Below, in pieces: positions 7,569 through 64,000 of a DNA stretch of 64,000 nucleotides (position 1 is its first letter; each line of letters starts with the position of its first letter). The notes under the pieces are model-generated. The model was not told the DNA's origin and made no database searches. It saw only the letters and a program-made list of their open reading frames with translations. Source of the DNA: Flavisolibacter ginsengisoli DSM 18119 (GTDB taxonomy: Bacteria > Bacteroidota > Bacteroidia > Chitinophagales > Chitinophagaceae). The stretch lies in assembly GCF_900129295.1 (NCBI RefSeq), contig NZ_FQUU01000001.1, positions 310,001-374,000 of the forward strand, written 5' to 3'. The position numbers and the translations under genes are program-made.

Positions 7569-8254
7569 CCCCTAAATGATACGGATACCAGGTTGTATCC
7601 ATACTCCTGGATTGCACTTTACCCTTTTTTACAACTATAGCTTAAGACTATAATGCCTGGTTACAAACCAAACGCAACCTATCATGAGTATAATCAAATG
7701 GGCGTTTCTACCATCATATAAGATTATAAAAGCGAAATAAGGCTGTTTCAATGCATGGAATAGTATATCGGGAATTTGAGAAAGACTTTGAAGCAAGCAA
7801 TTATAATGACTTTTTCAGCCATTGTAAAAGCCCACCAAAGGAGAGGATGTCCCGAAGATATCCCGAGGATATCCCGAGGATAAGCCGACGATAAGCCGAC
7901 TCTTATAGAGTCGGGATATCCCCGGGATATCTATAGCTTATGTATGGGATATGGATGGCAAAAGCTGCCATTTGGCCCGGCTGTTCATGGTTTTTCGTTT
8001 ATTGTAACTGGTTCCTTAGCTATTACTAGTTTTCAAGGGTCAATTGGCATTTGATTAAGGTTACAGAGCTTTCTTTATAAGCAAATTTTATCAAATCATA
8101 GTTTTAGAGCCAGGTAGTAAAACCTTGTATATACCGCGTCGGGATATTACATTTTTTACATAAAATATTCACCCCCTATTTATGGCTTTTGATTGTTTCT
8201 TACAAGCCCTGGATATCCATTTAAAAAAAATATTTATTTATTTATTTTAGCGCC
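7569..8254. other. Long spacer carrying repeat copy 1
   Basis: This 686-base gap holds the structured repeat at 7844-7948 and otherwise no convincing gene. A 47-codon frame at 7751-7894 runs into the repeat and is not supported. After the repeat there is a small hairpin (ATGGCA/TGCCAT near 7955-7971). The last 60 bases before the next gene are very A/T-rich and probably contain its promoter. Confidence 0.6.
7844..7948. repeat. Structured intergenic repeat, copy 1 of 3
   Basis: Five direct 11-bp units start at 7846: GATGTCCCGAA, GATATCCCGAG twice, then GATAAGCCGAC twice. They end in a perfect 8-bp hairpin, CCGACTCT-TAT-AGAGTCGG (7896-7914). Three more units follow in inverted orientation: GTCGGGATATC, CCCGGGATATC and TATAGCTTATG. 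The arms can pair into a long imperfect stem. The same element recurs at 35399 and 63654. Confidence 0.9.
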
Positions 8255-20488: not shown

Positions 20489-20534
20489 TATTTATTATAA
20501 CTATTAGCTGCTATTTATTATAACTATTAGCTGC
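20489..20534. repeat. Perfect 23-bp tandem duplication
   Basis: The unit TATTTATTATAACTATTAGCTGC occurs twice in direct contact (20489-20511 and 20512-20534) with no mismatch. It is downstream of the terminator and in no gene. It may be a recent slippage product or a doubled binding site. Confidence 0.85.
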
Positions 20535-35039: not shown

Positions 35040-35318
35040 TCAACTACTTTCAATATCATGGGTACTCATGCCATGGGAGTAAAGTAAAAGAACATGATCC
35101 TCTATCTCCTCCATTACTCTTTTACGCCTGGGTACTACCTGGGGCTCAAAACTCGATTCCCTATCCCTGCGAACTTCTATTGTAATATTACCAGGCTTTG
35201 TTTTAAGTTTTTTTGAGCTGGTTCTATTGCGGCTATTGGGGTACTCACAGGCATCAGGAGCCTGCTTTTTAACTAAAATCGCCCGGCAATAGCAGCTGCG
35301 GTAATCCTGATCACCCAA
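35040..35318 (-). pseudogene. IS256-type transposase fragment
   Basis: The 92-codon frame contains NSRNRTSSKKLKT, TIEVRRDRESSFEPQVVP, RKRVMEEIEDHVLLLY and HGMSTHDIES. This is the central N-terminal block of IS256/mutator-type transposases (RNG..KT, EVPRDR..FEP.iV..., ...LYA.GMST.DI). The first 90-100 residues and the DDE catalytic domain are missing. The frame opens only at a TTG and stops right after the DI motif, so it is a decayed remnant that cannot move. It lies 82 bases from repeat copy 2. Terminal inverted repeats are not recognisable. Confidence 0.8.
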
Positions 35319-35398
35319 GTGCTGTGCCTCCCTGTCCCTTTATACAGTTATCTAAACACTTCAGGACAAGACACTATGGTACATCCTGCCAACCTTCG

Positions 35399-35502
35399 GG
35401 ATGTCCCGAAGATATCCCGAGGATATCCCGAGGATAAGCCGAGGATAAGCCGACTCTTATAGAGTCGGGCTATCCTTGGGACATCTATGGCTTATGTATG
35501 GA
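35399..35502. repeat. Structured intergenic repeat, copy 2 of 3
   Basis: It has the same architecture as copy 1. Five 11-bp units start at 35400, here with GATAAGCCGAG as unit 4, followed by the hairpin CCGACTCT-TAT-AGAGTCGG. Inverted units GTCGGGCTATC, CTTGGGACATC and TATGGCTTATG end at 35496. The GACATC unit restores pairing with the first GATGTCCC unit. Confidence 0.88.
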
Positions 35503-35611
35503 ATATCATTGGGTTATGGTGGAGAGTGTTAACCTAACTGCTTAAGAATGGTTTGCCATAAAAAAAGTCCTTGGCATGGAATTCTTATTTTTATCTAAAT
35601 AATTGATTTTC

Positions 35612-63244: not shown

Positions 63245-64000
63245 GGCTCCAATTCTATTTCCTACAAAGGTGAACCCTTTAAAATACCCCTTCCATGACT
63301 TAGGTCACATGCTAAAAAATCATATACCCTTACCTATATATTTTAATTCAACCTGCTTAACCGCATAAAGTAAACTGTGATTTCATAAAATCAGTAACTA
63401 TATGATGTATAAGTTTAGATAACTGTTTTATTTTAACCAATATCAATGAATTACAATAGTTATGCGTTGACTCATATCCACTCGTTTCTCCCATCCAGAT
63501 ACCATCTGAATGAATGAAATCCCTTCACAGGGAAAGAGAAATATATTCCAGGCAGGATTAAAAAACTTTCAGGCAATTGCAATTTTAAACTGACTTCTGT
63601 TTAACACCGCTCACTCTTCCTGTATAAGCTCTCTGAACAGCGGACAATAGAGCAGGATGTCCCGAAGATATCCCGAGGATATCCCGAGGATAAGCCGACG
63701 ATAAGCCGACTCTTATAAAGTCGGGATATCCTCGGGACATCTTTGGCTTATGTATGTGATAATGGTAGGATATGGCGGCTCTCACAATTGTTCCGTAAAG
63801 TTTTCGAAAAGGTGGAGATAGCTGGAAATAAGTAGGGAGTTCGCCTACCTATTTTCATTTTATTAATTGAAGTATAATTTCATTTACATGCTATATAATG
63901 ATGATTATTAATTAAATGTTTAAGTAAAACTGTAAAGCATTACAAGTAGGGAGGTTTGAATAGTTAGAATCATTTATTATTTTACGGTCGAACCGAAAAT
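63245..64000. other. Long terminal spacer with repeat copy 3
   Basis: This 756-base region up to the window end holds repeat copy 3 (63654-63756) and no convincing gene. A hairpin (GTAGG/CCTAC near 63833-63860) and A/T-rich sequence follow. A minus-strand frame inside the repeat (63585-63785) is an artefact of the 11-bp units. Confidence 0.55.
63654..63756. repeat. Structured intergenic repeat, copy 3 of 3
   Basis: Five 11-bp units from 63656 match copy 1 exactly through the hairpin arm CCGACTCT. The hairpin has one mismatch (AAAGTCGG). Inverted units GTCGGGATATC, CTCGGGACATC and TTTGGCTTATG end at 63752. Confidence 0.9.

Follow-up and report, generated by a model that had tools for sequence, protein, structure and literature searches.

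Interspersed hairpin repeats built on an 11-bp module in Flavisolibacter ginsengisoli

Dispersed extragenic palindromes described as 20–40 bp long are known as REPs, and REPs and REPINs are associated with RAYT transposases (PMC3733652, PMC3116915, PMC2817692); IS elements target REPs (PMC1525189). The enterobacterial ERIC/IRU elements are intergenic, non-autonomous and 127 bp long, with long stem-loop transcripts (PMC2229807). BrickBuilt of Porphyromonas gingivalis is a minisatellite-MITE with 19 intergenic copies in one strain (PMC4596501). Here we describe an intergenic repeat, family A, which shares properties with each of these elements, as far as the excerpted accounts describe them.

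Family A resembles BrickBuilt in having intergenic copies of tandem units, in its predicted long stem-loops and in the lack of a reported Rfam match (PMC4596501). BrickBuilt, however, has 23-nt direct repeats, one element of 991 nt, and a leader and tail with IS5-like terminal repeats (PMC4596501); no such feature was found here, where the unit is 11 bp and the arms are inverted. With ERIC/IRU, compared by description rather than by sequence, family A shares its size, its intergenic site, its stem-loops and a presumed non-autonomous nature. ERIC has 7-bp terminal inverted repeats, a target-site duplication and TA at its ends (Table 1 of PMC2229807), and the excerpted descriptions make no mention of 11-bp modules (PMC2229807). 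Like REPs and REPINs, family A is dispersed, extragenic and present in many copies, but it measures ~120 bp, its arms are modular, and no transposase gene was found to have the repeat at its flanks. A MITE with sharp terminal inverted repeats was rejected as a candidate, because the right border of family A fades in the information profile without a sharp terminal repeat; the consensus fold shows a weak outer CCAAA/TTTGG match only. A CRISPR was likewise rejected, since the units are contiguous and have no unique spacers. By the defining features tested, family A is therefore not a REP, a sharp-ended MITE or BrickBuilt, and the statement in an earlier note on this DNA that the repeat is neither a CRISPR nor a simple REP holds. 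In excerpted literature covering repeats of 11 bp, Bacteroidetes REPs, minisatellite MITEs, ERIC and scattered stem-loops, the exact 11-bp module recurring in unrelated sequences had no counterpart.

Family A in the window and across the genome

The window is the whole stretch of DNA analysed, 64,000 nt of F. ginsengisoli DSM 18119 (contig NZ_FQUU01000001.1, assembly GCF_900129295.1, positions 310,001–374,000). The three intergenic copies reported in the earlier note at 7844, 35399 and 63654 were found in those places, all on the forward strand. In copy 1, the left arm (7846–7900) consists of five contiguous 11-bp units, which from L5 to L1 read GATGTCCCGAA, GATATCCCGAG, GATATCCCGAG, GATAAGCCGAC and GATAAGCCGAC. 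The palindromic apex CCGACTCTTATAGAGTCGG (7896–7914) overlaps L1 and R1, and the right arm R1–R5 (7910–7964) runs in the inverted sense, with R4–R5 degenerate. Copy 2 has its five left units (L5–L1) at 35400–35454, the palindrome CCGACTCTTATAGAGTCGG as apex at 35450–35468 and its right arm (R1–R5) at 35464–35518; in copy 3 the five 11-bp units L5–L1 occupy 63656–63710, the apex at 63706–63724 carries one change (TATAAAGTCGG), and R1–R5 lie at 63720–63774. In the right arm, the family consensus reads GTCGGGATATC, CTCGGGACATC and TATGGCTTATG, followed by the two weaker units R4 and R5. The layout previously described, of five direct units, a hairpin and three inverted units, was thus seen in all its parts and has to be extended by R4 and R5. 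A 22-base two-unit pattern, allowing up to two mismatches, gave 14 matches in the window, all within the three copies, and none in 100 dinucleotide shuffles. Elsewhere in the window, a 23-bp sequence forms a perfect tandem duplication at 20489–20534.

Further copies in the genome, whose absence the earlier note had named as an argument against its interpretation, were found in number. The genome (4.68 Mb in 55 contigs, here G000) contains 22 full copies of family A, which align over 133 columns with zero gaps, and three diverged copies (family B) with GATATCCCATA-type units, detected with a covariance model on contigs C8, C34 and C13. The ~120-bp element comprises ten modules, with a regular left arm of five units of the GATATCCCGAG and GATAAGCCGAC types and a right arm that decays outwards. 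Mean column identity over the 22 copies is 1.00, 0.96, 0.98, 0.99 and 0.88 for L1–L5, and 0.98, 0.88, 0.91, 0.77 and 0.70 for R1–R5, so that conservation peaks centrally and drops outward, more on the right side than on the left. The left units vary chiefly at one dinucleotide (TC or AG), and their ends, GATA..CCGA, are nearly invariant. Within their loci, 20 of the 22 copies are flanked on both sides by an ORF of at least 80 aa, and the other two lie at contig starts. No ORF overlaps 19 of the copies; the putative ORFs of 83–104 aa overlapping the remaining 3 of 22 were taken as spurious. No empty site or target-site duplication was seen by eye in the flanks of the 22 copies in this single genome.

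A recognisable relative is present in one of 17 congeners, while neither family A nor such a relative was found in the other 16, some of them incomplete assemblies, with 150 candidates scored per genome. A pattern search of 195 genomes of the bacterial family, three of them from the genus, matched seven, own genome included. The six others had 1–2 matches each, and a control pattern matched two genomes; we attribute the matches in the six to chance, apart from a direct array in G201. A search of phage, plasmid and viral-contig sequences for family A returned nothing. When nine of the 22 loci were compared with Rfam, no family reached its gathering score; the best candidate, mir-M7 (31.6 bits against 91 needed), was rejected along with the others, all scoring far under their thresholds.

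Sister families and neighbouring insertion sequences

Two additional families of the same architecture were identified in the genome. Family C, built from units TATGTAACGGC, TATGTGCCGCC and TTTGTGCCGCC around the apex CTCTTTAAAGAG, occupies ~32 places (40 of 41 first-look candidates scored). Family D has GGTATAGCTAC-type units and the apex CTCCGTGCGGGCACGGAG and occupies ~28 places, which may be an undercount, as 40 of 50 first-look candidates were scored. One genome thus carries interspersed palindromic repeats of no fewer than three families that are unrelated in sequence (A with its variant B, C, and D), all with a module of exactly 11 bp. Both A and C have five regular left modules and a shorter or degenerate right arm; the apex is A/T-centred in A, B, C and the families read in the congener G015, and G/C-rich in D. 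At C10:150173-150498 of G000, two of the families are close neighbours, a hairpin of family D standing ~150 bp away from a copy of family A.

The period was examined by a scan for hairpins with periodic arms, in which lags of 6–23 were left open and low-complexity matches were dropped. In 454 kb of contig C18 of G000, 10 of 11 periodic hairpins had a period of 11 or 22, namely five of family A, three of family C and two of family D. In 400 kb of G015, the count was 7 of 10, with unit sequences different from those of the own genome (GGATAACCCGA, GTATATAAGCC and others). Of the eight periodic hairpins in 400 kb of a further congener, G003, none had a period of 11 or 22, nor did any of the six in four 80-kb samples (G013, G009, G006 and G014). 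G015 thus has period-11 families of its own, and none were seen in the samples of five other congeners. A cruder fixed-lag scan gave 12, 12 and 1 matches at lag 11 in G000, G015 and G003, and was less clean: lags 8 and 14 gave 12 and 7 in G003, lags 8–10 and 12 gave 2–8 in G000 and G015, and non-11 lags overall gave 0–7 in G000, 0–8 in G015 and 0–12 in G003.

Insertion sequences stand beside some of these hairpins. A whole-genome search with one IS end gave 12 matches, 11 of which lie within 2–33 bp of a family C hairpin, at ten places (G000 C37:243-337, C24:192402-192672, C50:1-95, C35:251-345, C16:126652-126746, C6:22365-22441, C20:127427-127515, C48:1-37, C41:338-367 and C13:112546-112584). 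Ten of these 11 lie to the left of the hairpin in the same sense; the twelfth, a 23-base match, has none of the listed hairpins in its vicinity. The sequence that separates hairpin and IS end, compared at eight places, is unconserved, so the hairpin is apparently no part of the IS. This IS end is missing from about 22 of the 32 places of family C. The simplest reading is insertion near a pre-existing family C hairpin, which makes the hairpin a candidate structure-guided target for the IS. A 39-aa fragment of this IS matched no NCBIfam model and no plasmid record.

In the window, the N-terminal part of an IS256-family transposase relic lies left of copy 2 and outside the repeat (35043–35318, reverse strand; NCBIfam NF033543, E 2e-15, 56.6 bits, under the whole-protein cut-off of 150). 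A second IS end, matched at 35336–35359 on the reverse strand, ~40 bp left of copy 2, adjoins family A copies L001 (window copy 2), L002 and L005, and also occurs on C41 near a family C copy. These occurrences come from DNA mostly chosen around repeat copies and are no unbiased genome-wide count. Translations beside L002 and L005 and in C41 contain what we take to be IS256-like transposase pieces. Repeat copies are found 45–380 bp from contig ends (the starts of C17, C11, C41, C50, C37, C35 and C48, and the ends of C24 and C16), probably because adjoining IS copies break the assembly. The earlier note had named a position inside the end of a mobile element as an argument against its interpretation; this is not what was found, although copy 2 lies beside the IS256 relic and family C copies beside another IS.

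We lean towards the interpretation that families A, C and D are non-autonomous interspersed hairpin repeats with a lifestyle like that of REP, ERIC or BrickBuilt, serving as landing sites for an IS. The likeness of lifestyle is suggested by tens of intergenic hairpin copies, in few species, next to IS elements.

Pairing between the arms

The three window copies fold with z-scores of –4.0 to –4.9 on the forward strand and –5.4 to –7.4 on the reverse strand, and none of 200 shuffles folds as well. The stem potential behind the earlier proposal is thus strong on both strands. The mirror register of family A is nevertheless incompletely paired: its mismatches include ones of two or three bases in each of L1, L2 and L3, spaced by exactly 11 columns. 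The right arm pairs best when shifted by two units along the left arm (0.87, versus 0.71 in register). Among 50 pairing shifts, the best five are 0, 11, 22, 33 and 44 in A, C, D and G015-2, one of the G015 families; the unshifted register is clearly best in D, and shifts 0 to 33 are equal in G015-2. Given these shifts, the stems of A and C are better described as slipping by whole units than as one fixed cruciform.

The earlier note held that the differences of the GATGTCCC / GGGACATC kind preserve the complementarity of the arms, and this was not borne out. Of the 22 copies, 7 combine the two positions as G-C or A-T, 5 as G-T and 10 as A-C, a distribution that leans away from pairing (Fisher p 0.17), and L5 and R2, the units carrying the differences, do not face each other in the mirror register. 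Covariation was not detected in family A, where 1 of 836 cells is double-changed and 198 of 500 shuffles equal this, nor in 16 of the ~32 copies of family C, where paired cells are fewer than in shuffles. It was detected in the ten copies of G015-2 at four depths (pairing p 0.0015–0.0085, double changes p 0.0015–0.033; whole-arm shuffles, p 0.0015 at 16 pairs), with left ATCTCG accompanying right CGAGAT in three copies, and AAGCCG accompanying CGGCTT in the others. In 11 of the ~28 copies of family D, taken in mixed orientations, it was found over the inner 16–20 pairs (p 0.003–0.007) and lost with deeper pairs (p 0.66–0.99). Kinship among copies inflates all of these tests. Of the earlier proposals of arm covariation and of selection for a cruciform or RNA stem, what remains is the stem potential and the covariation in G015-2 and the inner stem of D; the covariation of the own families A and C did not materialise.

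One non-coding stretch is present twice, with the repeat copies L006 and L011 at its right end. Upstream, the two share ~400 bp with 54 differences in 394 aligned sites (86% identity), as compared to 2 in 88 sites over L5–R2 (binomial p 2.6e-4 versus the flank). Over R3–R5, 11 of 33 sites differ, and beyond them there is no clear similarity; that the duplication ends inside the repeat, at R2/R3, suggests recombination between copies. The core of the element thus changes more slowly than its flank, through selection or conversion, and the low L5–R2 divergence fits functional selection as well as homogenisation.

These observations bear on the possibility that the repeat is a functional cis-acting RNA hairpin, acting in mRNA stability, termination or processing and selected at each site. 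The strong folding, the slow L5–R2 core of L006/L011 and the arm covariation in G015-2 and inner D are in its favour, as are the six consensus columns of family A that read G·T on the forward strand in the mirror register, against one A·C (cells 113 versus 59), though these six columns repeat one unit change. However, the flanking ORFs of family A occur in all four orientations, and no T tract follows the stem, either in the three window copies or in the flank comparison of the 22. Considering also the lack of covariation in family A and its single recognisable relative among the congeners, we regard selection as an RNA hairpin at each site as unlikely.

Dispersal and the 11-bp module

A further possibility is that a Y1/HUH transposase of the REPIN/RAYT type moves the repeat in single-stranded form and inserts it with respect to fork direction. 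Measured against GC skew, calculated from the DNA of each copy's contig (20–454 kb each), 19 of the 22 copies of family A share one orientation (binomial p 8.6e-4), and orientation is uniform within each of the six contigs that hold at least two copies (16 copies). The test was devised after the uniform contigs had been noticed, and hand counts elsewhere do not repeat the bias (1 of 3 in B, 5 of 10 in G015-2, 4 of 6 in G015-1, and 11 of the 21 family C places, of 32, that lie on contigs of known skew), so the polarity is treated as a lead. Transposase models are well represented in the genus, PF01797 in 14 of 18 genomes and the REP-type transposase NF047646 in 15 of 18, including the own genome and G003. 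The seven NF047646 matches in the own genome are all under the curated cut-off, and none has a listed copy of family A, B, C or D within 5 kb; no period-11 hairpin was found in the stretches scanned around four of the seven. The repeats flank no listed transposase gene, and such genes also occur in genomes where no period-11 hairpin was seen, as in G003, which has NF047646 but 400 kb without one. A link to Y1/RAYT was accordingly rejected for want of association, and Y1/HUH mobilisation seems to us rather improbable.

The earlier note also offered selection for a protein that binds one face of the DNA. An array of sites on one face of the duplex would agree with the 11-bp spacing, near one helical turn, and with the nearly invariant unit ends of the left arm. 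However, families of unrelated units with the same period would need several proteins, and inverted arms are needless for a protein that reads one face. The B-DNA turn is 10.5 bp, and across five units a spacing of 11.0 bp would drift off it. A period common to several unrelated units is better explained by a geometric or process-based constraint than by one binding site, and we doubt strongly that the repeat is such an array.

Least probable is a pure mutational by-product of slippage and template switching at quasi-palindromes, with no selection or dispersal machinery, which would account for the register shifts by whole units and for arrays in scattered genomes with and without an evident inverted arm (see below), but leaves the dispersal to 22–32 places as gap-free copies unexplained.

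Under the preferred interpretation, of non-autonomous hairpin repeats that serve as IS landing sites, the copies would spread as non-autonomous repeats, and a hairpin on one strand may be the acting form, as RNA or as extruded or single-stranded DNA. Slippage and conversion would then remodel the arms by whole 11-bp units, so that the remodelled right arm could pair with the left in several registers. Judging by position, one insertion sequence or more would use the hairpins to land, as happens with REPs elsewhere.

The exact 11-bp module common to unrelated families makes two questions directly testable: how the size of the module is set, and whether the acting form is RNA or DNA. We put forward, tentatively, a general class of undecamer hairpins: unrelated families of recurrent origin across lineages, whose stems consist of modules exactly 11 nt long (one A-form turn) and can slide in 11-nt steps, with a shared enzyme or process setting the length of the module and not its sequence.

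Outside the genus, a search for three GGATA-NNNN-GA units returned 67 stretches in named genomes. Of these, 26 come from the Sphingobacteriia MAG MS_R2_22, and a lax criterion finds a period-11 hairpin in 21 of the 26; in several other genomes, the direct array alone is evident. As the pattern preselects an 11-bp spacing, the frequency of period 11 is not measurable from it. Arrays of GGATA-NNNN-GA units were seen (loci L094–L160) in Tannerella, Prevotella, Anaerolineae, Cloacimonetes, Oceanihabitans and others, several of them with inverted arms by the lax criterion (24 of 50 pairs).
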